Shown: piece by piece, positions 537 to 17,045 of the stretch
Position numbering within the stretch: the stretch's first letter is position 1
Layout of the letters: the number at the start of each line of letters is the position of its first letter
Assembly: GCA_921293015.1 (NCBI GenBank)
Contig: OV121089.1
Coordinates: forward strand, 40,968,520-41,032,519
DNA length: 64,000 bases
Direction of reading: 5' to 3'
Origin: Phorcus lineatus
Taxonomy: Eukaryota > Mollusca > Gastropoda > Trochida > Trochidae
Program-made: the position numbers and the translations under genes
The notes under the pieces: generated by a model
Told to the model about the DNA's origin: nothing
What the model saw: only the letters and a program-made list of their open reading frames with translations
Database searches by the model: none

Positions 537-689
537 ATATTTACCCAACGACTGGTGATTCCCACACCCACAACTGGCGCGCAGCATACCGCCTTCTCTG
601 GGACGTCTGCTAACTTCAGAACCAAGCGAAGGACATTCCTCATGTCTTGTCTTTATATTCATTTTACTTATATGTGCTTATACATAGTA
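537..689 (+). pseudogene. Fragment paralogous to 11309-11490, possible recombinase relic
   Basis: This stretch matches 11309-11490, with two deletions, one of about 25 bp. It would encode a peptide ending in NFRTKRRTFLMSC. That peptide is loosely reminiscent of the core-binding part of tyrosine recombinases in DIRS-like elements, but the match is from memory and weak. The frame closes soon after. It is the host sequence into which the gypsy element inserted. Confidence 0.4.
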
Positions 690-1432
690 ATTTATGATAA
701 CCTTAGTCAATAGCTTGAAATTCAACCAGAGAGAAATATAAGATAACCAAAAGTTATTGTTGTAAATTCAATTATTAAGAAACATTAACAAACCTCAATC
801 AATTATCTATTTAAGGGAAGGAGACTTTTACCAACATCAGTGAGCAAAGGTAACCTTAGACAATGTTATACTGAATACTAAGAAATACAAGATAACCAAT
901 AATCTTGTTTCAAGATGAATCCCAAATGCAGCCTGTTATGGATTAGCCGTTGACAATAAGGATAAACACCTATAGTCTCCAGTAATCTTTTCTGCTAGAT
1001 AGAACTGACAGAGAAACACTTCCCTGCAATAGTGAGCAAAAGTTATCAAAGATAACCTCATGCTATAGCTATAAACCCATTTCTTATGAACTACAGGAAA
1101 AGTTCAAGCTACGATAAACATCAATTGGTTAAGAAATATAAGACAACTTCAAGATATTGCTGTACATTATTAGTTAAGAAATATATGACAGTAATGCTGA
1201 ACATCCATTAGTCAAGAAATATATGACTACATCAAGCAATGCTGAACATCCATTGGTTAAGAAACATATGACTACCTCAAGATATGCTGAACATCCATTG
1301 GTTAAGAAACATATGACTACCTCAAGATATGCTGAACATACATTGGTTAAGAAATATAAGATAGCCACAAATTATTGCTGTACTCTTAATTTGTTTTCCA
1401 TTATATTTACATTTTTTGTTTGTTATTTTCAG
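690..1432 (+). repeat. Composite repeat copy A, 5' noncoding module
   Basis: The sequence beginning AACCTTAGTCAATAGC recurs, diverged, at 13546, 14421 and (from an internal point) at 9720 and 11954. Shared landmarks are TTATGGATTAGCCGTTGAC and CACTTCCCTGCAATAGTGAG. From about 1120 to 1365 it breaks into a 45-47 bp tandem motif (CATCCATTGGTTAAGAAA..CTCAAGATATGCTGAA). It ends in a pyrimidine-rich stretch and TTTTCAG at 1427-1432, which looks like a splice acceptor for the following transposase exon. Confidence 0.7.
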
Positions 1433-1661
1433 CTGCAGTACAATCTCTGCCCTAAAAGCTAGGATCAAGAAATTGGAAAAGGAAATCCAGTTTGAGTGAA
1501 TTCTGCAACTTCTGTGATACAGAATACAAACAGACTGTCAAACATGTGAACACAAGGTGGCTAAGCCTTGAAAGAGCTGTGGCAAGAAATTGGGAGTTAT
1601 AAGGGGGAAAGAAGCTACTTTATTTCCAGTAAAGAAAGTCAGTTAAGATTCGAGAGGCTAA
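1433..1661 (+). pseudogene. hAT-like transposase fossil, copy A, 5' part
   Basis: The exon after the acceptor-like TTTTCAG reads ISALKARIKKLEKEIQFE in one frame. After a stop it continues in another frame with FCDTEYKQTVKHVNTRWLSLE. The NTRWLSLE stretch is characteristic of hAT-like (ZMYM/TTF-type) transposases just before their catalytic region. Several stops and frame changes make it a pseudogene. It is cut at 1661 by the Harbinger element and resumes at 7315; the uninterrupted paralog is at 14993-16165. Confidence 0.62.
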
Positions 1662-1688
1662 AGCCCCTTACACATGCACCCGTTTACT
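1662..1688 (+). repeat. Harbinger left terminal inverted repeat
   Basis: 27 bp identical to the reverse complement of 7288-7314. Similarity continues inward imperfectly through repeats of the form ACTCCCATRAGTATATATACTCC. Confidence 0.92.
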
Positions 1689-1953
1689 CCCATGAGTATA
1701 TATACTCCTGTAAGTATATTTGCTTACGGTAAGTAAACGTGTCATGTGAACGCGTTTACTTATGGGAGTATCCCTGCTCCTGGAGTAAATTTACACCACC
1801 TCAGGGGGTCTAGTATAAGTATTATACTCCCTAAGTAAATTTACTCCATAAGTAAACTGTGCCATGTGAACGCGTTTTTCTATTACTCCTGGGAGCAAAC
1901 AATGTGGATACAAGTCTAAATATAACAAATTCTTGCATCGTCACAAAATTAGA

Positions 1954-2042
1954 CCAGACAGTCACATGACCTGTCTGGTTTTTTTTCACCTAGTCCTTGC
2001 ATCATCACTGAATTAGACCAGACGGTCACGTGACCTGTCTGG
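1954..2042 (+). promoter_or_regulatory. Duplicated dyad with E-box upstream of the Harbinger Myb-like gene
   Basis: Two copies of an imperfect 25 bp dyad (1954-1978 and 2018-2042) sit in tandem with a 64 bp period. Each has CCAGACRG / CTGTCTGG arms around a central CACATG or CACGTG. They end 53 bp before the Myb-like start codon, so they are probably promoter elements or protein-binding sites. Function is inferred from symmetry and position only. Confidence 0.5.
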
Positions 2043-2094
2043 CTCTTTGAGTTCCTTTGGGATCATTTGAGATTTGTCTTCAAAACAGTAGAGT

Positions 2095-3117
2095 ATGGCT
2101 GCGAAAAGAAGGTCGAGGCGTGGCGCATCGTGGACAGATGAGGAAACAGAATGTCTTCTTGCTATCTGGGGTGAAAAGAAAATAGAGATGCTTCTTGAGG
2201 ATCCAAAGAAACACAAGGGATCTATTTATTCCATGATTGAAAACGAGATGGCCAAAAACAGTCATGAAAAAAGTGGTCAACAGTGCAAAATAAGAATGCA
2301 CACTCTCCGAAAGAACGACAGAGATTGTAATAAGAAACTGAAAACAAGTGGTAACGCAAGAAAGGTGTGCAAATTTTACCCGAAACTTGCAGAACTTCTC
2401 GGTGATCGTCCAGCCTCTTCACCGCTGAAAGTTGTCGAGAGTTTGACGAGAAAGAGGCTGTATAAAGAAGATGTGTCTGATGATGCTTCCGAGAGCGATG
2501 CCATTCAAGAGGATCCAAGGCGCGTTGATGGTGATGGTGATGCTGCTTACCGTGACAGTGACGCGATTCAAGATCCTGATGCTGCTGACGCTGAAGCTGA
2601 CGACACTTACAAACCTCTAGATGACAGCGAGGATGACATTGCTGTGGCAGAACCGGCAGTAACACAGAATGCTGATAAAATGACAAATGAAAAGAAAGAA
2701 AGTTGTGTTGTGAAGACGTCTGAAAAGAAGAAACGTAAAACTAAACTAGAAACTGTAATTGGATCACTAATGACCAATTTCAATGACAGCAACAGCAAGC
2801 TCGAGGGCACCCTCGTTGACTTGGAAACGAAAAAAACAGATATTGAACTGAAGAGGATCGAGTTGGAGAAACAGAAAATAGAATCTGAAGAACGCCAGAG
2901 ACGCGAAGAGCGTGCAATGAAGAGAGAAGAGAGACAGGAAGAGCGGAGACATCAGTCCCAGATGATGAACATGATTCTGGGCCGTGTTAATGCCGTACCC
3001 ACTGGCAACATGTTCACACCTGCAACTAGCTTCAGCGACAACCACACTCCAACTACTAACAGTTTCAAACCAAATGTGTCCTATGATGACGGTGGACGTT
3101 CCTTTTTTGAACTTTAA
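2095..3117 (+). CDS. Harbinger Myb/SANT-like DNA-binding protein (340 aa)
   Basis: An intact frame. Residues about 11-95 form a Myb/SANT-like (trihelix-type) domain beginning SWTDEETECLLAIW. Residues about 125-205 are very acidic and Asp-rich, and about 230-290 form a charged Lys/Glu/Arg coiled coil. In Harbinger elements the Myb-like protein binds the terminal DNA and helps bring the transposase to the nucleus and to its ends; that role is known for the family and inferred here. The start follows the duplicated dyad and is the first ATG of the frame. The gene faces the transposase and shares the terminator region at 3489-3524. Absence of stops suggests recent activity. Confidence 0.85.
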   Translation: MAAKRRSRRGASWTDEETECLLAIWGEKKIEMLLEDPKKHKGSIYSMIENEMAKNSHEKSGQQCKIRMHTLRKNDRDCNKKLKTSGNARKVCKFYPKLAELLGDRPASSPLKVVESLTRKRLYKEDVSDDASESDAIQEDPRRVDGDGDAAYRDSDAIQDPDAADAEADDTYKPLDDSEDDIAVAEPAVTQNADKMTNEKKESCVVKTSEKKKRKTKLETVIGSLMTNFNDSNSKLEGTLVDLETKKTDIELKRIELEKQKIESEERQRREERAMKREERQEERRHQSQMMNMILGRVNAVPTGNMFTPATSFSDNHTPTTNSFKPNVSYDDGGRSFFEL

Positions 3118-3488
3118 AGTTACTGATCGAATGTTAATCCATGAATCTGGGTTAAATAAGGATTATTTTGTTATGAAGGACAGTTATAATCACTCGTCAC
3201 TAAAAGGAATATCTGGAATAAGGACATTTCCAAAACTGAATAGCTTATTTTAGAGAAGTTTTCTATAGAGAGTTTTATGATCTCGGTTCTTTAGAATATG
3301 TATTGGAGATAACAATGCAAAAGTAATGCAGCAGTTTCTTTGGGGTGAAAAATCTGTCACCAGAGTAATTTTCTGTAATTTTCTATCCGAAAACATTTGT
3401 TTACAGAGATACATAAATTGTATTTGCATCGCTGTAAGTTGTCATTGAAGATTTTCATGTAAACGTTATTTATGATTTGATTGTTTTA

Positions 3489-3524
3489 AATAAAAATAAT
3501 GCAATTGAAACTTCTTGCTTTATT
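3489..3524. terminator. Back-to-back polyadenylation signals of the two Harbinger genes
   Basis: AATAAA on the plus strand (3489-3494) can serve the Myb-like gene. The complement of TTTATT at 3519-3524 gives AATAAA on the minus strand for the transposase. They are only 24 bp apart, so the original element had a compact convergent terminator. Confidence 0.55.
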
Positions 3525-3557
3525 GACCAGAATAGCATGACACATTACATCTGTTTC

Positions 3558-3685
3558 TCAGACATTAGCGAAATATGTTGCCAAATCATTACGGAGAGTT
3601 TTTGCGCACGGGACGTCTTCATCGTCAGTCACTGCATCATGCTCGTATGCATCGACTTCAGCTTCCACATACTGCTCATGCTTAA
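3558..3685 (-). pseudogene. Severed C-terminal coding end of the Harbinger transposase
   Basis: Reading leftward from the TTAA at 3682-3685, the frame that would directly continue the transposase (after codon 343) stays open for 42 codons and stops at TGA (3558-3560). Its composition is acidic and it ends LATYFANV, similar in style to the RxxLxxYF end of other Harbinger transposases. It now has no start and is separated from the rest by 2.4 kb. With it, the undisturbed protein would have been about 385 aa. Confidence 0.8.
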
Positions 3686-6097
3686 CCCTTAAGATGCGGG
3701 TCCCGGAATATTCCGGGATGAAATTAGCTTTGCCCGCAAGTCCCCTTAGCGGGATGCGAGTAGCACACTCTATTTTTCTCGCGCTAACTAATTATGACCG
3801 CGGGTCTCGGTAGCGGAGCCCGGAAATTTATTGCCTAGCAGTAGTCTCAGTTCAACGCTTGTATTTTCGTTCCGGCTCTCGCTAAGCAACCGTGTTTTGT
3901 TTCGTTGGTGTTCTAAATAATGCGCGAACATGCTCCGAAAATTATGCGAACATTGATAATGTTTATCGTACCGAAAATAAGCGTTAAAATCACTCAATTT
4001 TCCCCCACTCCCCGCCGCACGTGCTAATAGCCTGTGGGCACTTTCTCCCCGCTCGCACGAGCTTACCGTCCCGCGCGTGCTATCGTTAGCTTACAAGCCT
4101 GCACTCACACCAAACGTACAACCTTATATCGCACGCCCTATGCTCTGAACATTTGGGCGGATTTCAATACCGGTTGGATCATTTGAAAGAGCAGAAAATT
4201 GTCTTCAATTCAATATAAAATACATAACTACACTACCTGAATTGAAGATACAGCATGTGCTGCAAAAAAGGTGATTTTTACATATTTTTAGTTTTACACC
4301 ATTTTGTCACATCAATTTTTACATGATGTGCTCAACGTATTTTGACAATTTTTATATCATAAGACAGAGAGAAAGATTGTCTTTCTTTCCATGTAAAATG
4401 TGTACATGCGCAAAAATAAATAAAGACACAGCAAGCGCCGCACAAAAAGCTAATTTCTCGATTCAAATCATGTAAACTGAACGGCGATTTTGACATGTGC
4501 CTTTCTTTCGCTCATATCTTCTCAACAGCTAGGCGTATTTTGAAATTGATTACCTCGTGATAAAGAAGGAATAATTGTCTTCGATTTGATATAAAAAAAT
4601 TATATACACCATATAGAATAAAGATACAGCAAGTTCCGCAAAATTGTGACTTTTGTTTATTCTTTACGTTTTTACCATTTTCTCGCACTTTATATCACAT
4701 AAAGTTCTCGGTAAATTTTGCAATTTCATATATCAAAATATAGAGAAAAGGATGATCTTTATTGCAATATAAAATTGGTATGTACAAGAAAATCAGAAAG
4801 GACCCGGCGCGCATCGCACAAACAGGCAATTTCTCTATTCATATTTTGTTGACCGAGAAGCGATTTATTTTCAACTGCTTTTTACACTTCCTATCCATTT
4901 AACGGCAGAACGCATTATCAACATTTTTACATCACAATAAAGAGGAAAGGATCGTCTTCAATTCTATATAAAATTTGCAAATTACAATTAGACAATAAAG
5001 GAGCGGTTAGTGATGTCGCAATTATCAAAATCTGTTCTAAAATACCCGAGGGTACCATCTTTGCAAACTTAATATTTATTCCAAACCAAGTGGTACATAT
5101 TTATTATTTTCATATCATCGTAAAGCAGAAATAAATACCTTCATTTTCATGTGTAAGTTGCCCATATTTGCATCAAAATAAAACGTGTGGAAACGATGCG
5201 ACATATGTTGCGGTAAGGCGATTATCAAAGACTTTATTAGTAGCTATACCCACGTTTCGTTGGTAATAACTTCTAATTACAGTGCAAAAGATTGTTATGA
5301 TTTATTTCTTCGTAAAGAAGAATAAATTGCCTTCAATTCCATATATAATTTGCATGTATGCAAAGCGAATAACATGATTTATAAAGTTGGAAATAAAGAC
5401 AATTTATATTGTGTGTATGTTTCAACGGGGATACCCCGCCTGCACGCGCTGAGCGCGTGCGTTTACCCGGGGCTATTAGCTTAGTAATATTACTGTGGGG
5501 GTCAGAACGTTATCGGGATGTATCACTACCCTGTTTTCGTAATTTATATCTTTCGTTTAGGATGGCGTATCGTAATAAAATTTATCGTGAAAAATAGAGC
5601 AAGAAATTAGCTTCAATTCCGTATATAATTTGCATGTGTGCACTCAGTGATTAAATGATTTTATAATGTTTGAAATAAAGACAATTTTTAAAATTTTGTA
5701 AAATTCGTTCTAGACATATTATAAAAATAATTTTTATATCGATGTGAAGAGGAACTATTCATCTTTAGTTTCGTTTTGATTTCGCGCATGCGCTCTTGAA
5801 ATTTATTGAGTTATGGCGCCCGAATTGAAAACAAGGGTGATAGAAATTTCATTCAAAGTGTCAAGTAAGTATCATCCATTTGTAACACGGGATTCGCCGA
5901 CTAGCGTTGTATAAAACGACGATAATGTCCGTATTTCGCTATGTAAACACGCCATATGTTGTTAAAACGGTCGCATCTGGCGGCGCTGGAAAATTCGGCC
6001 ACAGGGGCTAATTGCGTTATTACCGTAGCGAGGCGAGTGCTGGAAAATTCAGCCACGGGGGCAAAACTGGTCAAAATAATATTCAGCAACGGAAGGG
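3686..6097. mobile_element. piggyBac-like nonautonomous TTAA element, 2412 bp, nested in Harbinger
   Basis: Flanked by TTAA on both sides (3682-3685 and 6098-6101). Both termini start CCCTT when read inward, followed by partly matching bases, as in piggyBac-type elements. No transposase frame is visible inside. The left 500 bp and right 300 bp are relatively GC-rich, with a strong TCCCGGAATATTCCGGGA hairpin near 3700; the middle is AT-rich and internally repetitive. The break of an otherwise continuous coding frame exactly at TTAA is the best proof of insertion. Confidence 0.78.
4180..5770 (+). repeat. Decayed tandem array, about 185 bp period, inside the TTAA element
   Basis: A diverged motif of the form GTCTTCAATTCxATATAAAAT recurs near 4199, 4375, 4573, 4757, 4946, 5126, 5326 and 5602. 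Most spacings are 176-200 bp, the last about 276. Between occurrences are similar blocks such as TAAAGACA and CGCAAAA. The units are too diverged for an active satellite. No coding potential seen. Confidence 0.5.
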
Positions 6098-7131
6098 TTA
6101 ATCTCGCAGATGTTATGAAGAACGACACACGCAGTGACAACTGTACTAGCAAACTCTACATCTGTGTCAAGTCTCTTCTGTATGCGTCTCCACCTTCCCT
6201 TAAGGCGCCCAAATGTATTCTCGATAGTCATGCGAGCTCTGCTGTGTTTGTAATTGTATATTCTCTGTGTTGCCGTCAGGTTGTTGATATGTGTGAATGG
6301 TTTCAAGAGCCATGTCTTCAGGGGATAAGCTGCATCGGCAAGAAGCACAATTGGCATGTTGATAACCTTGTCCTGGCATACAAGCTTTTTAGGTAGATTT
6401 GGGAAAAGATCGTTTGTTTCGCCTTTGTAGAAGATTTCTGAGTTCCCAAACACCCGTGCGTCATGGACTCGGCCAGGCCACCCAACGTTGATGTCAGTGA
6501 TTATGTACTTGAAATCACAGGTGGCTTGAAGGATGATTGAGTACCACCCCTTCCTATTTAGGTAATCACCATGTGCAACAGGTGGTGCAATAATAGGAAT
6601 ATGTGTTCCGTCAATCGCACCCGCACAGTTCGGAAACCCCCAAACCTTCTCAAAGCCACTTATGGTATCATGAAGTTTGTCACCGGTTGGAAATGTGACA
6701 AAATTCGGGAGAAGAAATTCCGAAATAGCTGTGCAGACTGTGTGAACACATTTACACACTGTTGAGCTTCCTACCCCAAACAAATTACCGACAGTGCGAT
6801 ATTCGGCATTGCTGGCCAACCAATAAACTGTAATGGCTACTCTGTGGTTGAGGTCAAGTGGCTCCCTGACAAATGCACCACTGTTAGGCAGATACGGATG
6901 TAGCTCTTCGCAAAGAAAGTTAAAGGTTTCTTCTGTCATCCTGAAATTTTCTATCCACTCCTTAGTTGTAAAGTTTCCGCCAACTATATCCTCCCACCAT
7001 GTCCATGACCGCTTTCTTGACCACACCTGCCTTTCTTTGGAACATCCAAGGACAAGACCAGTACACAGGACATACTGGAAATCTTTCCTTTGCTTGGTTA
7101 TCAGTAGCTTGCTCATGATGTCTGTCCACAT
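6049..7131 (-). CDS. Harbinger DDE transposase, C-terminus replaced by inserted element
   Basis: 360 codons reading leftward, related to the DDE_Tnp_4 superfamily. Visible landmarks are a helix-turn-helix-like N-terminal half, AIDGTHIPI with Asp174, GRVHDARVF with Asp224, LADAAYPL with Asp266, and a RMTIENTFGRLKGRW block with Glu304: the DDE catalytic core is intact. It would cut and join the element ends in the nucleus. From residue 344 the native frame is broken by the TTAA insertion, so the last 16 or so residues and the stop at 6049 come from the inserted element. The original C-terminal codons survive at 3558-3685. The catalytic core is uncorrupted, but loss of the native tail may have silenced the protein. 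Confidence 0.88.
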   Translation of the reverse strand: MWTDIMSKLLITKQRKDFQYVLCTGLVLGCSKERQVWSRKRSWTWWEDIVGGNFTTKEWIENFRMTEETFNFLCEELHPYLPNSGAFVREPLDLNHRVAITVYWLASNAEYRTVGNLFGVGSSTVCKCVHTVCTAISEFLLPNFVTFPTGDKLHDTISGFEKVWGFPNCAGAIDGTHIPIIAPPVAHGDYLNRKGWYSIILQATCDFKYIITDINVGWPGRVHDARVFGNSEIFYKGETNDLFPNLPKKLVCQDKVINMPIVLLADAAYPLKTWLLKPFTHINNLTATQRIYNYKHSRARMTIENTFGRLKGRWRRIQKRLDTDVEFASTVVTACVVLHNICEINPSVAEYYFDQFCPRG

Positions 7132-7287
7132 ATGTGGTCATATCAGTTTTATTTTCAGTTATCAAGTGTCTGAATTATATGCAAATTTAAGAAATACTCC
7201 CATTGGTTAAAATCCCATGTGAACGCAAAGTAAAGATACTTTTACTCCGGTAAGTATATATACTCCACAAGTAAATATACTCCCATA

Positions 7288-7314
7288 AGTAAACGGGTGC
7301 ATGTGTAAGGGGCT
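7288..7314 (-). repeat. Harbinger right terminal inverted repeat
   Basis: Exact reverse complement of 1662-1688. The next three bases are TTA, the target duplication, followed by the resumed hAT-like fossil. Confidence 0.92.
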
Positions 7315-8240
7315 TTAGATCACAATATGAAGATCCCATGACAGACGTTTACTTGATTTTCTATGAGTCTGTTTTGCCTGTCTTTACTTCCTTCAACCAG
7401 TTCCTTCAAAGAAGAGATCCTTGCATCTATGCAGTATACCCTCAGATGAAGTCATTTATGAGGAAAATTTGTCAAGATTGACATCATCAAAAGCCACATG
7501 TCCTTGTTAAAATCATGTTGACTTCACACCTGTCTTCAATGACATCAAAACCTGGAACTCGAAGAGGAAGGTGATATTTCTCCAGCTAGGAGGAAAATCT
7601 TTTTCAAGGGAGTAAGGTCTCTCTTCAAGAAGGCCTGCTCAGAAGCAGTTTAGAAGCTGCCATGGTGTGATGACAATAACATTCTTAAACATGCCTGTAT
7701 TGTTAATTTTGAAGAATGAGAGATTGCGACATTTGAAGATGTGGCTTTCTTTCAGAAGCAATATACACATCTCCTGCCAATCAAAACCCCTCAAGACAGT
7801 GCTGAATTACAAGAGGAGTTCATCGAATACCAGCTGCTGGAACGAGGTGACATTTCGGAAGATGTTTGGAAGGGCTCTCTAAATCAAGGATGGTGAAAGT
7901 ACCTGCTACAGAAAGGACAAAATCTGGGGGTTTATTGGCAATTAAACACAAGCAGGTGGTTGTCTCAAGTTTCCCAAACTGGCAGCAATGCCTAACCTTG
8001 TGTTGGTCATTCCTCACTCAAATGCTGGAGAAGAAGAAGAGTATTTAGTATGGTTAGGAAAAATAAAACTTTAGAAATAGTTTGGCATTGGATGGTAGTC
8101 CTACTTCTTTGATCACAATTAAGTTGGCCAATCCAGAGTCATCTCCCTCATGTGGGAGCCACCACAAAAACTTTTGATAAAAAGCTAAGAGCTCCACAAA
8201 GTACTACAAAAGACACCAAACTGTGCTCATAACTTCAATG
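7315..8240 (+). pseudogene. hAT-like transposase fossil, copy A, 3' part
   Basis: Resumes exactly where 1661 stopped. Broken frames read FYESVLPVFTSFNQFLQRRD, then a region with AELQEEFIEYQLLERGDI, then PKLAAMPNLVLVIPHSNAGE and a serine/lysine-rich stretch. The last block is the C-terminal dimerisation region typical of hAT-like transposases. Multiple stops and shifts show it is dead. Nucleotide identity to copy B (15224-16165) is high throughout. The 5' part is at 1433-1661. Confidence 0.68.
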
Positions 8241-8559
8241 TGGAAGTGACACTGCCATAGATGAGCTGCTTCCAAATCTCTTGTTATGTTCTGCAGTAGA
8301 GTCAAGGGGGACAAGAAATATCAGTAGAAAAAAGTTCGTATTGCTTCTCTCTAGTTGAAATATATTGATCTGTGCTTATGTGTTGGTGGTTTTTTCATTT
8401 CATTTTAAGCCAATTTTGTAAGAAAAACATCAAAAAAGCGTTTTCATCTGGGGATACAAAGCCCCCTAGACCCCCTACCAGGACCAAGTCCATGACTTAA
8501 CCAGGGCGGAATCCGGCTTCATCAGGTCTCACTCATTTTAATCTTTAGGTGTTGGCAGC

Positions 8560-9035
8560 TATGGGAACATCTTCCCCCAAGACAAGCTGGAAGAACTACA
8601 GACAAATTCATAATTCATGAAAAAAGATGTATTTCCCTACGAGCAACCCCAGTAATCAATTAGTAGGAAGACTTTACAGGGGAAACATTTCACTTCTGTA
8701 GTCAGTTTGGTAGGTTATGGTAGTCAACCAAATGTTATTGCTGTATATCCTCATACAGAGTTATGTATTGGTTGTAGTAATATTTGGTGAAAGATAAAAG
8801 ATGAAATAGTTGTAGTAACATCTGTAGTTATGAAAAGAAAGGAGAAATGCTTTTAACATATGGTTACAGTTTGTAAAAAGAATCTTGTTGAAAAGAAAAG
8901 GTTTATTTAGTTTCTTAATAAAATTTATTTGTACCGTTTGTGTATTTTTATTTGATCTATGTCAACGTTATGTAGGAATCATCAGTGCAAAAATGCCATT
9001 CTTTCATTTAAACTGTTCTTTACTTTCTGTCTTTT
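8560..9035 (+). repeat. Composite repeat copy A, 3' module
   Basis: Begins near GGGAACATCTTC and runs through landmarks CCCTACGAGCAACCCCAG, TCACTTCTGTAGTCAG and CAATAAAATTTATTTGTA. Matching modules are at 10139-10556, 12352-12769 and 16515-16925. About 230 bp just before it (8330-8560), with a CCCCCTAGACCCCCTA stretch, is absent from copy B and is probably a later insertion. No coding capacity. Confidence 0.65.
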
Positions 9036-9648
9036 AGGAATTACTGCAAATTAACACAGATTGGTTGTTTCTCAATTTCCAGGCAATGTTTGACAGATGT
9101 GATCAGAGCTGAAAACAGTGTCTACTATCTATGAAAGGGCTTCTGTTACTAAGATTACACACATTCTGATACAAATGCAAAGCACTGTTTCCACTCAAAC
9201 CATAAGAACCTGCGATATCTTGATCACAAAAGTGTGGACTGAGTAGATAAAGCATGGATCTCTTTGAAAGCATTGTTAGGGAGGGCTCTTCAAAACATAA
9301 GATCAGCCATTTGACAAATCGGAATTTCATGGACATTTATGATTATGTTATCAAGTCTGAAGACATCAGCATTTAGTTTGCAACTGGTTCGATTATGTGA
9401 CCACCATTCTTCGTTTGAAACTTTCTAACTTAAGAAAGGAAAACAAGAAATTGAGAGGAGAAAATATTTTTTACTGTAGGGAGGAAAGGTTCTCACTGAA
9501 AAAGACTGAAGAAAGATGACTCAAGACAGTTAAATCAAAATCTGTAACCTTGACTGAATTGACAAAAAAACAAAATCTGATGTATACAAGGAAAAAGTTT
9601 CAAGTTTGGAAAAGACATTATCTAAACCTCTTTCATTGATGAGGAACA
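9036..9648. other. Tail of composite copy A, no gene seen
   Basis: The first 120 bp (to about 9160, landmark TTTGACAGATGTGATCAGAG) is shared with copy B at 16920-17040, extending the duplication. The remaining 490 bp matches nothing else noticed in the window. Confidence 0.5.
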
Positions 9649-10556
9649 TACATTGGTTAAGAAATACAAGATAACCTCAATAGGTTAAGAAGTGCAAGAT
9701 AGCATTATGCTATTGCTGTATATAAATTTGTTAAGAAATATGTATAAGACACCATTGAGCAAAGATAAAATCTCATGCCCTGCTTCTAGAAATATTTAGA
9801 AATACAAGACAACCCATAATTGTGTTTCACGATGAATCCAAAATGCAGTCTCTTATGGATTAGCCGTTGACAATAAGGATAAAGACCTGTAGTCTCCAGG
9901 AATCCTTTCCTGTAGATAGAACTGACAGAGAAACACTTCCCTGCAATAGTGAGCAAAAGATAACCTCATGCTATAGCTATAAACCCTTTTCATATGAACT
10001 ATAGGAAAACCTCAAGATATGCTGAATATTAATTGGTTAAGAAATGTAAGATTGTTGTACACTCACTTTGTTTTTCATTATATTTACATTTGTTCTTTAA
10101 ATCTTATTTTCAGCTGCAATATATTCTCTGCTAGGATAGAGAAATTGGAACATCTTCTGCCAAACCAGCTAGAAGAACTACAGACAAATTTTATAATTCA
10201 TGAAAAAAGACATATTTCCCTACGAGCGACCCCAGTAATCAATTAGTAGGAATACTTTACAGGGGAAACATTTCACTTCTGTAGTCAGCTTGGTAGGATA
10301 TGGTAGTCAACCAAATGGGATTGCTGTTTAATCTCATACAGAGTTATGAACTGGTTATAGTAAGATTTGGTAGAAGATAACAGATGAAATAGTTGTATTA
10401 ACATCTGTAGGTATGAAAAGAAATTAGAAATGTTTTTAACTTAAGGCAACAATTTGTTAACAGCATCTTTTTAGTTTCTCAATAAAATTTATTTGTACTA
10501 TTTGTGTATTTTTATTTTATCAATGTCTACCTTATGTAGGAATTATCAGTGTAACA
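9649..10556 (+). repeat. Composite repeat copy C, internally deleted
   Basis: The 5' module (9649-10113) ends in TTTTCAG and is followed by only about 30 bp of the transposase exon (TCTCTGCTAGGATAGAGAAA). It then jumps straight to the 3' module at AACATCTTCTGCC. The hAT-like coding middle, about 1.2 kb in copy B, is missing. Copy D has the same join. Confidence 0.65.
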
Positions 10557-10703
10557 ATGTCATTTGTTAAACTGGCAAACTGTGCACTAACTGCAAGTCT
10601 ACAGAAGGACTCAACCCACAATCTGAAGTTCAACACGAGATCCCAGATTTGCTTCACTGAGGAAGTTGAATTCAATTGCCGCAAACCAATTTTGGCAACA
10701 CAG
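10557..10703 (+). pseudogene. Relic gene fragment, exon 1
   Basis: A 49-codon stretch from ATG, beginning MSFVKLANCALTASLQKD, ends at CAG followed by GTATTG, a plausible donor. It directly follows the composite 3' module. Paired with 11029-11133 it gives an 84-residue in-frame product. Its identity is not recognised. Copy D carries a shorter, frameshifted version at 12770-12935. Confidence 0.4.
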
Positions 10704-10846
10704 GTATTGCTTGAATCCAAAGATATGTCAATCAAATATTTCCTGACACTTGGAACTATGCAAGAGGTATATAACCTGGTGACTTATTTCAAATAAAGTT
10801 TTTTAAATCCATTGTCTTACCTTTAATTTTAAAGGTTTTTTTCTGA

Positions 10847-10947
10847 ACAACCGTAGATATAATGAATTGTTAACTGCTCCAGTACTTAATTAATGATTTT
10901 CTTTTACTATTTTCTGAAATGTAGATATGACATACACATTAATACAA
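10847..10947 (+). repeat. Left arm of a 101 bp inverted repeat
   Basis: ACAACCGTAGATATAATGAA and following bases are the near-exact reverse complement of 11853-11953, with a handful of mismatches. The arm lies in the interval between the two relic exons. Confidence 0.75.
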
Positions 10948-11028
10948 TGTCATCAGCAATGATATTATCAGGAACTTATAACAACAATGAATAATCGAAC
11001 TTTTGTAAATGCTTCCATCTTCTTTCAG

Positions 11029-11133
11029 GGAAATCTAACAGCAAAGGTACTGAACACCACTGTCCAAGAAGAAACAGTTGAAACCAAATTTGGCCACAGA
11101 AAGATGAAAAAAATTCTACTTGACAAAAAACAG
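11029..11133 (+). pseudogene. Relic gene fragment, exon 2 (possible OB-fold)
   Basis: Preceded by a pyrimidine-rich acceptor (CCATCTTCTTTCAG, ending 11028) and followed by GTACTATG. It is exactly 35 codons in phase 0 with exon 1. The pattern V.N.TVQEETVETKFGHRKMKKILL resembles the strand-turn-strand of RPA-like OB-folds, an impression rather than a test. The frame closes soon after the donor, so no complete gene is present. Confidence 0.38.
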
Positions 11134-11236
11134 GTACTATGTCACTGCAGCTAGGAATTCATTTGAATTGTCAGGATGTGTTAAAGGCAATGAATGTTCC
11201 CTGGAGCATAAATGCGGCCGTGGTTATTTGATCTAG

Positions 11237-11713
11237 GTGGCACCTTTCCCCCACAGTGAGCACCACTTACGTGTAACCAACATAAAACACTGTCCAGTCA
11301 ATGGCTCCATATTTACCCAACGATTGACATTCCAACACCCACAACTGGACCAACTGCTACAGGATGTACGGGACGCGCAGCATACTGCCTTCTCTGGGAC
11401 GTCTGCTAACTTCAGAACCAAGCGAAGGACATTCCTCATGTCTTGTCTTTATATTCATTTTACTAATATGTGCTGGTACAAAGTTAGATATGTACATAGT
11501 AAGTCTGCCCGCCTGAATGTGAACATCCAATTCATGGAATGGTGCCAGCAGGCCAACATGGTCCAGGAACAATACCGGGTCACCCTCCCAAACGTACAGG
11601 CTACGTTCCTGGAGGACCTAGCTAAGGTCAAGGCGACCTCGGCTAAAAACATGTCACTGGTTCTCCTTGCCAACCACCTTGACCTGTTGAGAAGACAACA
11701 ACAATCGCTTTAA
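11237..11713 (+). CDS. Unrecognised 158 aa frame, part repeated at 537-689
   Basis: Open for 158 codons between the inverted arms. The N-terminal half contains QHTAFSGTSANFRTKRRTFL, shared with 537-689 and faintly like the core-binding domain of DIRS/Crypton-type tyrosine recombinases. The second half (from about residue 75) is helical and charged, ending LANHLDLLRRQQQSL, with no family recognised. There is no catalytic Arg-His-Arg-Tyr set. It is probably a fragment of a retroelement or recombinase-bearing element rather than a host gene; translation is unproven. Confidence 0.3.
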   Translation: MAPFPHSEHHLRVTNIKHCPVNGSIFTQRLTFQHPQLDQLLQDVRDAQHTAFSGTSANFRTKRRTFLMSCLYIHFTNMCWYKVRYVHSKSARLNVNIQFMEWCQQANMVQEQYRVTLPNVQATFLEDLAKVKATSAKNMSLVLLANHLDLLRRQQQSL

Positions 11714-11852
11714 GATAGCATCAATGAAATTCAATCAACTTTCCCGCGGGATATGGAGTCCAAACCAGTGATCAAATTAACAGCCTGCCCGGCTGCCCGT
11801 GGCTGGCAAATTTCTTGTCGGGCTGCCTAAAATAATTCCCCAACCGGCCCGA

Positions 11853-11953
11853 TTGTATTAATGTGTATGGCATATCTACATTTCAGAAAATAGTAAAAGA
11901 AAATCATTAATAAAGTACTTGAGCAGTTAACAATTCATTATATCTACGGTTGT
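11853..11953 (-). repeat. Right arm of a 101 bp inverted repeat
   Basis: Pairs with 10847-10947. Its outer edge abuts composite copy D (ATAAGACACCATTGAGCAAA), suggesting the copy or the inversion ended here. No clear target duplication is seen outside the arms. Confidence 0.75.
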
Positions 11954-12769
11954 ATAAGACACCATTGAGCAAAGATACTATCTCATGCCCTGCTTCTAGA
12001 AATATTAAGAAATACAAGATAACCAATAATCTTGTTTCAAGATGAATCCCAAATGCAGCCTCTTATGGATTAGCCGTTGACAATAAGGATAAAGGCCTGT
12101 AGTCACCAGTAATCTTTTCCCTTAGACAGAACTGACAAGAGAAACACTTCCCTGCAATAGTAAGCAAATGTTATCTAAGACAATCTCATGCTATAGCTAT
12201 AAACCCATTTCTTATGAACTATAGGAAAACGTCAGGATATGCTGAATTTTCATTTAATATAAGATTGTTGTACACTCACTTTGCTTTTCATTACATTTAC
12301 ATTTGTTCTTTAATTCTTATTTTCAGCTGCAATACAATCTCTGCTAGGATTGAGAAATTGGAACATCTTCTGCCAAACTAGCCAGAAGAACTACAGACAA
12401 ATTTTATAATTCATGAAAAAAGACATATTTCCCTACGAGCAACCCCAGTAATCAATTAGTAGAAGTCTTTACAGGGGAAACATTTCACTTCTGTAGTCAG
12501 CTTGGTAGGATATGGTAGTCAACCAAATGGGATTGCTGTTTATCCTCATACAGAGTTATGAACTGGTTATAGTAAGATTTGGTAGAAGATAACAGATGAA
12601 ATAGTTGCAGTAACATCTATAGGTATGAAAAGAAATTAGAAATGCTTTTAACTTAAGGCAACATTTTGTTAACAGCATCTTGTTAGTTTCTTAATAAAAT
12701 TTATTTGTAATATTTGTGTATTTATGTTTTATGAATGTCTACCTATGTAGGAATTATCAGTGCAAAAAT
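11954..12769 (+). repeat. Composite repeat copy D, internally deleted
   Basis: The 5' module (from 11954), acceptor-like TTTTCAG (12320-12326), a 30 bp stub of the transposase exon and a direct jump to the 3' module are as in copy C. The shared junction GAGAAATTGGAACATCTTC shows that copies C and D descend from one deleted ancestor. Confidence 0.65.
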
Positions 12770-12935
12770 GACATTTGTTCAACTAGCAAACTGTGCCCTA
12801 ACTGCAAGTCTACAGAAGGACTCAACCCACAATCTGAAGTTCAAAAGTACTGACCACTGTCCAAGAAGAAACAGTCGAAACCAAATTTGGCCACAGAAAG
12901 ATGAAAAAAATTCTACTTGACAAAACAGGTACTAT
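12770..12935 (+). pseudogene. Frameshifted, intronless version of the relic gene fragment
   Basis: Begins ATGACATTTGTTCAACTAGC like 10557 and runs to CTGAAGTTCAA. It then jumps to sequence matching the inside of exon 2 (ACTGTCCAAGAAGAAACAGT). The join skips part of exon 1, the whole intron and the start of exon 2, and is out of frame. It is a deletion, not a processed copy, because the join does not follow the splice sites. Confidence 0.5.
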
Positions 12936-12959
12936 GTCACTGCAGCTAGGGCCAGGAAT

Positions 12960-13545
12960 TCATTTGAAGTGTCAGGATGTGTTCTGTGAATCTCTGGAAA
13001 GGCAGGTCCCTGTCAACATGCATGGTCTTCCTGGGCATGAGTATTGACACTGTTCACTCCGAATTATGGGCCCCCAAGGAAAAGTTGAAAAATATTGTTA
13101 GGAAGTCCTAACAACGTGGCTTTCATTTAACTCGTGCAAAAAGAGAGACCAGCAGTCCCTCATAGGAAAGAAGTCACTGGGTACCTAGGACGGTGCAACA
13201 GTGTATCCATCTTCAACAGAGACCTGTAGCTCAACGCTGTGTATGGGAACCAGTTTTTCCACAAAGAATTTCCCGCCCATTTGCTTCAGTTAAACCTCCC
13301 TATTGCTGTACTGGAATGCTTCTAGTTGCCTTGAATCTGTGGGGGGGGGGGGGGGGGAACAGGGGACACAAAGACACCTGAAACAGCCGTCGCCGGAGCC
13401 AAAAAGTCATGTGACCTATGAAAAGAGTACATAAGGAAGGTAAAAAATGTGGTTTATTCAGTCTGATGAGTCCTAATCTTTGGATGAAACTAGTCACTAA
13501 TCCACAACTACTGCCTCTTAGGCGTCGTAAGGCCAACCTGTCTTA
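12960..13545. other. Unassigned stretch with a G17 tract
   Basis: No gene recognised. A run of 17 G at 13341-13357 interrupts any frame and is prone to sequencing error. Confidence 0.5.
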
Positions 13546-13895
13546 CTTATTATTATGATAACCTTAATCAATAGCTGGAATTTCAACCAGAGAGAAGATG
13601 ACCAAAAGTTATTGTTGTAAATTCAATTATAAAGAAACATTAATAATAAAGAGATTTTAACCAACATCAATTACCAAAGTTAACCGAAGACAATCTCATG
13701 CTGTACATCTGAATATTAAGAAATACAAGACAACCAATAATCTTGTTTCACGATGAATCCCAAATGCAGCCTCTTATGGATTAGCCGTTGACAATAAGGA
13801 TAAAGACATATGGTCTCATCAATCTTTTCCCTTAGACAGAACTGACAGAGAAACACTTCCCTGCAATAGTGAGCAAAAGATAACCTCATGCTATT
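13546..13895 (+). repeat. Extra copy of the composite 5' module
   Basis: Starts AACCTTAATCAATAGCTGG and carries the TTATGGATTAGCCGTTGAC landmark. It is followed at once by the 47 bp array and then by copy B's own 5' module, so this locus has the module twice in tandem. Confidence 0.65.
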
Positions 13896-14420
13896 GCTGT
13901 ACATCCATTAGTTAAGAAATATATAAGATAACCTCAAGATATGATGTACATCCATTAGTTAAGAAATATATAAGATAACCTCAAGATATGATGTACATCC
14001 ATTAGTTAAGAAATATATAAGATAACCTCAAGATATGATGTACGTCCATTAGTTAAGAAATATATAAGATAACCTCAAGATATGATGTACGTCCATTAGT
14101 TAAGAAATATATAAGATAACCTCAAGATATGATGTACATCCATTGGTTAAGAAATATAAGATAACCTCAAGATATGATGTACATCCATTGGTTAAGAAAT
14201 ATAAGATAACCTCAAGATATGATGTACGTCCATTGGTTAAGAACTGTAAGATAACCTAAAGATATGCTGTACATCCATTGGTTAAGAACTGTAAAATATC
14301 CTCAAGATATGCTGAACATCCATTGGTTAAGAACTGTAAGATTACCTCAAGATATGTTGTACAGCAATTGGTTAGGAAGTGTAAGATAACCTCAAGATAT
14401 GCTGCACATCCCTTAGTTAA
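13896..14420 (+). repeat. Minisatellite, 45-47 bp unit, about 11 copies
   Basis: Units read TGTACATCCATTAGTTAAG, then AAATATATAAGATAACCTC and AAGATATGA. Early units are 47 bp and nearly identical; later ones are 45 bp and more diverged. The same motif occurs in shorter runs at 1120-1365 and 14830-14925, inside the composite repeats, so the array is an expansion of an internal unit. Confidence 0.85.
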
Positions 14421-14992
14421 TTAATACATTAACCTCAGACAATTGCTTGAATTCAAACCAGAGGGAAATATAAGATAACCAAAAGTTATTGTTGTAAATT
14501 TAAAGAAACATTAACCAACCTCAATCAGATTTCTATTTATGATAAGAAGACTTTTACCAGCATCAGTGAGCAAGGTAACCTAAGACGATCTCATACTGTA
14601 TGCCTGAATATTAGAAAATATAGAATAACCTATAATCTTGTTTCACGACGAGTCCAAAATGCAACCTCTTATGGATTAGCCGTTGACAATAAGGATAAAG
14701 ACCGTCTCCAGTGATCTTTTCCGCTAGATAGAACTGACAGAGAAACACTTCCCTGCAATAGTGAGCTAAAGTTATCTTAGATAACCTCATTCTGTAGCTA
14801 TAAATCAATTTGTTATGAGCTTTAGTAAAACCTCAAGCTATGTTGAACATCCATTGGTTCAGAAATATATGACAACCTCAAGATATGCTGAACATCCATT
14901 GGTTAAAAAATATAAGATAGTCACAAATTATTGCTGTACTCTTAATTTGTTTTCCATTATATTAACATTTTATGTTTAAATGTTATTTTCAG
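14421..14992 (+). repeat. Composite repeat copy B, 5' module
   Basis: Matches 690-1432 over its length, including the final run of 45 bp units and the TTTTCAG acceptor-like end (14986-14992). Confidence 0.68.
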
Positions 14993-16165
14993 CTGCAGTA
15001 CAATCTCTGCCCTAAAAGCTAGGATCGAGAAATTGGAAAAGGAAATCCAGTTTGAGTGAATTCTGCAACTTCTGTGATACTGAATACGAACAGACTGTCA
15101 AACATGTGAACACAAGATGGCTGAGCCTTGAAATAGCTGTGGCAAGTAATTGGGAGTTATAAGGGGGAAAGAAGCTACTATATATATCCTGTAAAGAAAG
15201 GCAGACAAGATTCAAGAGGCTTAGATCACAATATGAAGATCCCATGACAGACGTTTACTTGATTTTCTATGAGTCTGTTTTGCCTGTCTTTACTTCCTTC
15301 AACCAGTTCCTTCAAAGAAGAGATCCTTGCATCTATGCAGTGTACCCTCAGATGAAGTCATTTATGAGGAAAATTTGTAAAGATTGACATCATCAAAAGC
15401 CACATGTCCTTGTTAAAATCATGTTGACTTCACACCTGTCTTCAATGACATCAAAACCTGGAACTCGAAGAGGAAGGTGATATTTCTCCAGCTAGGAGGA
15501 AAACCTTTTTCAAGGGAGTTAGGTCCCTCTACAAGAAGGCCTGCTCAGAAGCAATTTAGAAGCTGCCATGGTGTGATGACGATGACATTCTTAAAAAAGC
15601 CTGTTATGTTAATTTTGAAGAATGAGAGACTGCCACATTTGAAGAATTTTGTGGCTTTCTTTCAGAAGTGATATACACATCTCCTGCCAATCAAAACCTC
15701 TCGAGACAGTGCTGAATAACAACAGGAGTTTATCAAATACCAGCTGCTGGAACGAGGTGACATTCCAGAAGATGTTTGGAAGGGCTCTCTCATCAAGGAT
15801 CGTGACATTACTTGCTACAGAAAGGACAAAATCTGTGGGTGTATAGCCAGTATGACGCAAGCAGGTGGCTGTCTCAAGTTTCCCAAACTGGCAGCAATGC
15901 CTAACCTTGTGTTGGTCATTCCTCACTCAAATGCTGGAGAAGAAGAGTATTTAGTATGGTTAGGAAAAATAAAACAGACTTTAGAAATAGTTTGGCTTTT
16001 GATGGTAGTCTCACTTATTTGATCACAATTAAGTTGGCCAATCCCTGATGTATTAAGTGGGAGCAGCCAAAAGGACTTTTGAAAAAAGCTAGGAGCTCCA
16101 CAAAGGACTACAACAGACTCCACTCCAATAAGTAATCTGTGCTCATAACTTCAATGTGGAAGTGA
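14993..16165 (+). pseudogene. hAT-like transposase fossil, copy B (uninterrupted)
   Basis: The full-length counterpart of 1433-1661 plus 7315-8240, without the Harbinger. In shifting frames it carries the leucine-rich start, the HVNTRWLSLE-type region (mutated), SKRKVIFLQLGGKPFSRELG, QLLERGDIPEDVWKGSLIKD and PKLAAMPNLVLVIPHSNAGE. The last is the hAT C-terminal dimerisation block. Stops and shifts are numerous. GAGGCTTAGATC at 15216-15227 is the intact version of the Harbinger target (TTA at 15221-15223). Confidence 0.7.
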
Positions 16166-16177
16166 CACTGCCATAGA

Positions 16178-16388
16178 ATGTTTAGGAGCCCATGACTGAT
16201 GAGGCAGGAGCAACTTATTTTGTTTAATGTAATTTATTTTCTGTTTATCATTCAACATCAAAGTACTTGAAACATAACAAATTCTATGGATAGTCAGCAT
16301 CTTATTGCATGATTGCAATCATAATTTTAAAAACTTATAACCATGAAAGTGCGCATTTTGGCTTTCATATTTGTTGATATTGTCACAT
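16178..16388. mobile_element. 211 bp insertion in copy B flanked by GCCATAGA repeats
   Basis: Copy A reads GACACTGCCATAGATGAGCTG without a break. In copy B the eight bases GCCATAGA occur on both sides (16170-16177 and 16389-16396) of 211 AT-rich bases. An 8 bp duplication fits a hAT-type MITE, but no terminal inverted repeat is evident. A deletion in copy A between 8 bp repeats would give the same picture. Confidence 0.5.
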
Positions 16389-16514
16389 GCCATAGATGAG
16401 CTGCTTCCAAATCTCTTGTTATGATCTGCAGTACAGTTAAGGAGGACATACATACACTAAGAAATAACAGTTTCATGTGGATAAAAGTTCATATTGCTAG
16501 AAGAGGTACAGTCA

Positions 16515-16925
16515 AAATCATAATTCATGAAAAAAAAGATGTGTTTACCTACGAGCGACCCCAGTAATCAATTAGTAGAAGACTTTACAGGGGAAAAACT
16601 TCACTGCTGTAGTCAGCTTGGTAGGATATGGTAGCCAACCAAATGCGATTGCTGTACATCTTTATACAGAGTAATGTATCGGTTGTAGTAATATTTGGTG
16701 AAAGATTAAAGATGACATAGTTGTAGTAACATCTGTAGTTATGAAAAGAATGGAGAAATAAGGTAACAGTTTGTAAAAAGCATCTTGTTGAAAAGAAAAG
16801 GTTTACTTAGTTTCTTAATAAAATTTATTTGTATTGTTTGTGTATTTTTATTTGATCTTATTGCAAAAATGGCATTCTTTCATTCAAACTGTTCTGTAAG
16901 TTTTGTCTTTTAGGAATTACTGCCA
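16515..16925 (+). repeat. Composite repeat copy B, 3' module
   Basis: Begins at CATAATTCATGAAAAAAAAG and follows 8607-9035 closely through CAATAAAATTTATTTGTA. The homology with copy A continues to about 17045. Confidence 0.65.
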
Positions 16926-17045
16926 ATCAACACAGATTGGTTGTTTCAAAATTTCCAGGCAATGTTTGACAGATGTGATCAGAGCTGAAAACAGTGTCTA
17001 CTATCTATGAGAGGACTTCTGTTACCAAGATTACACAGAAACTGA

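Follow-up and report, generated by a model that had tools for sequence, protein, structure and literature searches.

The window, the whole 64,000-nt stretch of Phorcus lineatus DNA analysed here (C15:40968520-41032519), carries a PIF/Harbinger element whose transposase gene is interrupted by a TTAA-flanked element and which itself lies inside an outer repeat fossil. The genome searches reported below covered one assembly of 958 Mb in 74 contigs. Its mitochondrial COX1, on contig C74, translates sensibly under the invertebrate code, with AAA at lysine positions and AGA at serine positions of COX1, which is evidence against an echinoderm. The features of the locus are as follows.

1659-1661, no strand: left target-site duplication of the Harbinger, TAA, one base off the TTA that the empty site reads
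1662-7314, no strand: PIF/Harbinger element (about 3.24 kb once the insert is subtracted), with inverted ends AGCCCCTTACACATGCACCCG..., placed by its inverted arms, by the ends in four copies and by the empty site
2095-3117, plus strand: second Harbinger gene, encoding a 340-aa Myb/SANT-like protein (PF13837, Myb_DNA-bind_4, E 4.1e-16)
3519-3524, minus strand: AATAAA, a candidate for the transposase gene's native poly(A) signal, a sequence match only
3558-3683, minus strand: severed C-terminal 41 transposase codons and native stop; tail identical in C37, one residue off in C16, same DNA in C39
3682-3685, no strand: left TTAA target-site duplication, from the flanks and the single TTAA in three empty copies
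3686-6097, no strand: non-autonomous piggyBac element as read here, 2412 bp, outer ends CCCTTAAGATGC / CCCTTCCGTTGC, with internal diverged repeats of about 47 nt
6049-6099, minus strand: 16 chimeric codons and their stop, where the frame runs on into the right end of the element; two TTAA bases belong to the first of these codons
6098-6101, no strand: right TTAA target-site duplication, on the same evidence as the left
6098-7131, minus strand: Harbinger transposase codons 1-344, an open frame with the whole DDE_Tnp_4 domain match (PF13359)
7315-7317, no strand: right target-site duplication of the Harbinger, TTA, from the end comparison and the empty site
15016-16177, plus strand: second outer-fossil copy, with no insert at the Harbinger target (TTA at 15221-15223)

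The minus-strand open reading frame 7131-6049 encodes 360 aa, with 344 residues that are common to the uninserted copies (ending in HNICEI) and 16 that come from the element. The match to PF13359 lies at residues 173-340 and covers the profile from end to end (1-158 of 158, E 9.1e-35). A sequence-only reading of this DNA had described a transposase frame that is open up to a TTAA edge at codon 343; the open frame stands, and the edge moves by one codon, because two TTAA bases belong to codon 344, which is thus the last one in common with the uninserted copies. The 2412-bp element between the two TTAAs was likewise found on reading the sequence. Past the right TTAA, the element supplies the tail NPSVAEYYFDQFCPRG and a stop, and comparison with the uninserted copies confirms both as new. 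The claim of a readable chimera with an intact DDE core agrees with the open frame and the complete profile match. Beyond the other TTAA, the same frame resumes, as had been proposed; it runs for 41 codons at 3683-3561 (KHEQYVEAEV...LATYFANV, read KHEQYVEAEVDAYEHDAVTDDEDVPCAKTLRNDLATYFANV) and closes at the stop 3560-3558. The remaining two frames into the element stop after 4 and 64 codons, and the 16-residue tail therefore looks like an accident of frame. The candidate native poly(A) signal, AATAAA (3524-3519), is now 2.4 kb farther from the open frame. A search of PDB sequences with the Harbinger transposase part gave no relative, the sole match being an MHC protein at E 1.8.

To place the interruption, we compared the window with other copies of the same Harbinger. 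A left-flank query of 386 bases gave four genome matches, the window and three others, with all four candidates scored. With a right-flank query of 1217 bases, 40 of 78 candidates were scored; these four copies came up again as the close ones, at 95-100%, along with remoter relatives and numerous hits to nothing but the terminal repeat. The three other close copies (C39, C16, and C37) all lack the insert. Their flanks are contiguous with a single TTAA between them, and in each the DNA past the TTAA continues straight into the sequence at window 3683-3558. Harbinger copies with an undisturbed C-terminus, which the sequence-only reading had suggested seeking, are thus present in three of three cases; all three match window 3558-3685, two of them as protein, and the possibility that the native C-terminus would instead resemble 6049-6097 was not borne out. 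The C16 copy has an open frame of 385 residues with no stop and the native tail with one residue changed, and is damaged by a 3.4-kb insertion upstream of the transposase frame. The C37 copy has deletions within the transposase, a shortened Myb-like frame, and a tail identical to the window's severed tail. The C39 copy has a stop at codon 232, and for its tail the comparison was made at the DNA level only. The 5' transposase part of the window differs from C16, C39, and C37 at 7/1030, 9/1030, and 9/987 bases, respectively. Because there are only 7-9 differences per 987-1030 bases, we take the Harbinger copies to be young, and the piggyBac insertion to be younger than its host copy. The three empty sites most plausibly mark copies that never had the insert, rather than excisions.

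The window Harbinger shares with PIF/Harbinger elements a DDE_Tnp_4 transposase accompanied by a Myb/SANT-like gene, a 3-bp target duplication, and inverted ends. It differs in that its transposase is split, and the C39, C37, and C16 sisters are damaged too. The requirement for two proteins is known for Harbinger-type elements, as a passage of PMC2836001 states. As a separate observation, the insertion in the C16 copy (about C16:36771449-36774877) has ends GTATCATCCCAACT and palindromic CCCATCTTAAGATGGG repeats and is flanked by ATATAT; it contains no open frame of more than 90 codons.

The inserted element belongs to a family that is large and young. The sequence-only reading had called for a search for further copies of it; the first such search returned 2095 candidate places, and the best 40, which were scored, are all 99-100% alike over 999-1001 bases. 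The left-end 40-mer occurs 713 times in the genome and 707 times with TTAA added to the pattern, while the right-end 37-mer occurs 1047 times and 1018 times with TTAA added. These counts allow up to two mismatches over the whole pattern, TTAA included, and the reversed end patterns, used as a genome-wide control, gave 0 occurrences. Eleven of the 14 other element copies that we read have TTAA on both sides; the exceptions have CTAA on the left, TTAG on the right, and no left TTAA, one copy each. The element copy at C2:27447200-27450600, without a left TTAA, lies directly against a related element (80%), at the right end of the latter.

Pairing of left and right ends was examined on C1 and C2 for the 83 listed left ends that are free of mismatches. 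The partner lies 2.3-2.6 kb away for 41 of these, 6.1-6.6 kb away for 13, and at other spacings for 9, and 20 have no listed partner within 9 kb. Since most of the listed pairs lie near 2444 bp apart, the window copy is, by this measure, slightly shortened. Seven diverged repeat copies of about 47 nt occur at window 4188-5642, spaced 178-377 nt apart, and similar repeats are found in the coding elements.

The terminal inverted repeats of the element are imperfect, with 10 of the first 14 bases alike and a perfect match of 5 bp. Those of piggyBac-type elements are described, in a passage of PMC2872659, as 12-19 bp with a CC[C/T]T motif, and the CCCTTAAGATGC / CCCTTCCGTTGC ends fit this description, imperfectly. 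In common with non-autonomous piggyBac elements (TTAA MITEs and internal-deletion forms), the window element has a TTAA duplication, CCCT-type ends, and ends common with DDE_Tnp_1_7 coding elements. The coral CMITEs, for which PMC2872659 mentions TTAA duplications and alleles with and without the element, differ in size, being about 100 bp, in contrast to about 2.4 kb for the window element with its interior of ~47-nt repeats.

A genome search with PF13843 returned 1060 candidates; scores were obtained for the best 116, and in none of these does a stop fall within the match. About 106 of these 116, counted by eye, are open frames of 650-670 residues. This abundance of piggyBac transposases suggests a recent or ongoing burst. 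Four coding loci, on C2, C12, C7, and C32, all from this search, were read. The C2 coding element (C2:13286630-13292182, 5.55 kb, 664 residues) matches the window element over 828 bases of the left end at 83% and 263 bases of the right end at 79%. For the C12 coding element (C12:21451988-21458416, 6.43 kb, 662 residues), the corresponding values are 962 bases at 81% and 263 bases at 82%. In both, the end matches include TTAA. The C7 element (653 residues) matches the left end in pieces, at 82% over the first 45 bases and 77% from 129 to 915; its right end matches at 83%, the alignment ends 11 bases before the edge, and no right TTAA edge is recognisable. The 561-residue type on C32 was rejected as a coding partner, having nothing significant in common with the element (best E 0.36). 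For the C2 protein, the match to PF13843 has E 2.4e-94 and that to the solved piggyBat transposase E 4.3e-73. In addition, a class of 6.1-6.6 kb has ends identical to those of the 2.4-kb element (C1:19106373-19112801, C2:1624114-1630534, C2:1820643-1827069, and others). This class is likely the closest coding partner of the window element; none of its listed members on C1 and C2 overlaps the 13 transposase matches listed there.

Because coding elements with piggyBac transposases share its ends, the inserted element is identified, from its sequence, as a non-autonomous piggyBac. The piggyBac-type assignment of the sequence-only reading is upheld by the TTAA flanks, the genome-wide end counts, and these DDE_Tnp_1_7 coding relatives. 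It could be objected that some other TTAA-targeting group with convergent ends is present, and the short perfect terminal match, within 10 like bases in the first 14, leaves room for this. Such convergence would have to extend to both ends and the internal repeats, all of which are common to the PF13843-coding elements, and to the right end's final 80 bases, 76 of which agree between the window element and the C2 coding element; we give it very little credence. That the junction is an artefact of assembly, joining two repeats, is more improbable still. Both families are repeated and young, and assemblies may fail in such regions. An artefact would, however, have to reproduce the TTAA duplication perfectly, keep the ends of the element complete, and leave both flanks in the correct frame. 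Furthermore, the 7-9 differences between the 5' transposase part and each other copy mean that the window part is not a misplaced copy of any sister.

The remaining question is whether the 344 + 16-residue product works, with the element's end captured as a functional C-terminus. In favor of a functional chimera, the frame is open and the DDE domain match is full. Asp174, Asp224, Asp266, and Glu304 (D174, D224, D266, E304), which we take to be possible acidic residues of the DDE triad, all lie upstream of the junction in the chimeric frame, and the element offers an AATAAA of its own at 5807-5802. Moreover, in rice Ping and Pong, mutation of a predicted export signal in the C-terminal region of the TPase led to higher activity, according to a passage of PMC2836001. 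Against it, the severed tail ends in the motif CAKTLRNDLATYFANV, and two of eight diverged relatives align with it through a similar C-terminal end (CAKSLRNNLAAYFVN, CAKSLRNNLAVYFVN); for the remaining six, the alignment breaks off short of the motif and speaks neither for nor against it. None of the three other close copies carries the chimera. A working chimera is therefore judged very unlikely. Impairment is the likelier outcome because the conserved C-terminal motif is lost, and the transposase of the window Harbinger is probably impaired. An extension of the same idea, that the 360-residue protein might be active, perhaps freed of a regulatory tail, and that the piggyBac insertion might act as a reversible switch, has an even slimmer chance. 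If it were true, the inserted state would give one protein and seamless excision the native protein.

Collectively, these comparisons favor a young non-autonomous piggyBac element that inserted at a TTAA in the Harbinger transposase and split the gene, and we assign this whole account a probability of about 0.95. A piggyBac transposase encoded at some other place in the genome would have mobilised the element in trans. Cut-and-paste insertion at the TTAA in codons 344-345 duplicated the TTAA and separated the first 344 codons of the gene from a stranded remnant of 41, and the 5' part gained its 16-residue tail and stop by accident. By the known behavior of piggyBac, seamless excision would rejoin the frame. 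Insertion at TTAA and excision that restores the site without a footprint are described for piggyBac in a passage of PMC2874221, and exceptions to footprint-free excision are recorded in one of PMC2872659. Counted against the account are the end similarity of only about 80% between the window element and the coding elements read, the lack of a recognisable right TTAA edge in the C7 element, and the absence of TTAA from one side in 3 of the 14 element copies.

The Harbinger has an empty site of its own. In the second copy of the outer repeat, the sequence GAGGC-TTA-GATCAC is unbroken, with TTA at 15221-15223. This second copy is 91% like the right flank over that flank's first 943 bases and 92% like the left flank, whose match ends at the same point. 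The target duplication of PIF/Harbinger elements is generally TWA. That of mPing is usually TAA, as noted in a passage of PMC2836001. The 3 bp beside the two ends read TAA/TAA in C39, TTT/TTT in C37, TAA/TTA in the window, and TGA/TTA in C16, so that the duplication is exact in two of the four. Because the empty site reads TTA, the comparison suggests that the left TAA of the window is a mutated TTA.

The outer fossil itself consists of short pieces with many stops. A Pfam scan of seven of these pieces in the window gave no match over the curated cut-off, and matches to KH_GLD-3 (E 0.093) and Piwi_N (E 0.043) were taken as chance. With one piece as the protein query, a search of the genome gave nine locations, and two of these lie in the window. 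A relative on C5 has two neighboring open frames of 524 and 156 residues. The 524-residue frame aligns with one fossil piece at 34% over 58 residues and has no hAT match itself. The 156-residue frame matches PF05699 (Dimer_Tnp_hAT) at E 4.8e-8 and has 12 of 20 residues alike with another fossil piece. The fossil is thus similar to the hAT superfamily in that two of its pieces resemble a relative whose second frame has the PF05699 dimerisation region; it differs in being full of stops, with pieces that have no Pfam match over the cut-off. By this resemblance, the outer fossil is probably hAT.

These results support a three-level nest of a piggyBac element in a Harbinger in an outer fossil, the last probably hAT, because the Harbinger's own empty site is present in the window. 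The same nest had been proposed by the sequence-only reading. Its two insertions hold, the inner one through the empty sister sites and the Harbinger insertion through the empty site at 15221, and its hAT label for the fossil is softened to a probable one, reached by way of the C5 relative. The event is ordinary nested transposition, in which the members are new and the families already known. In the literature searched, judged by title and the opening of the abstract, we found no description of a piggyBac insertion inside a Harbinger transposase. As a case of nested cut-and-paste transposition the locus is clean and well resolved, and two of its levels have naturally occurring empty sites. 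Nothing new is learned from the split gene by itself, and the large young piggyBac family with its many open transposase genes may be worth more than the nest. Around the fossil, the outer region 578-17000 is a repeat composite with locally duplicated segments (for example, at 8667, 10250, and 12462, and at 578 and 11374).
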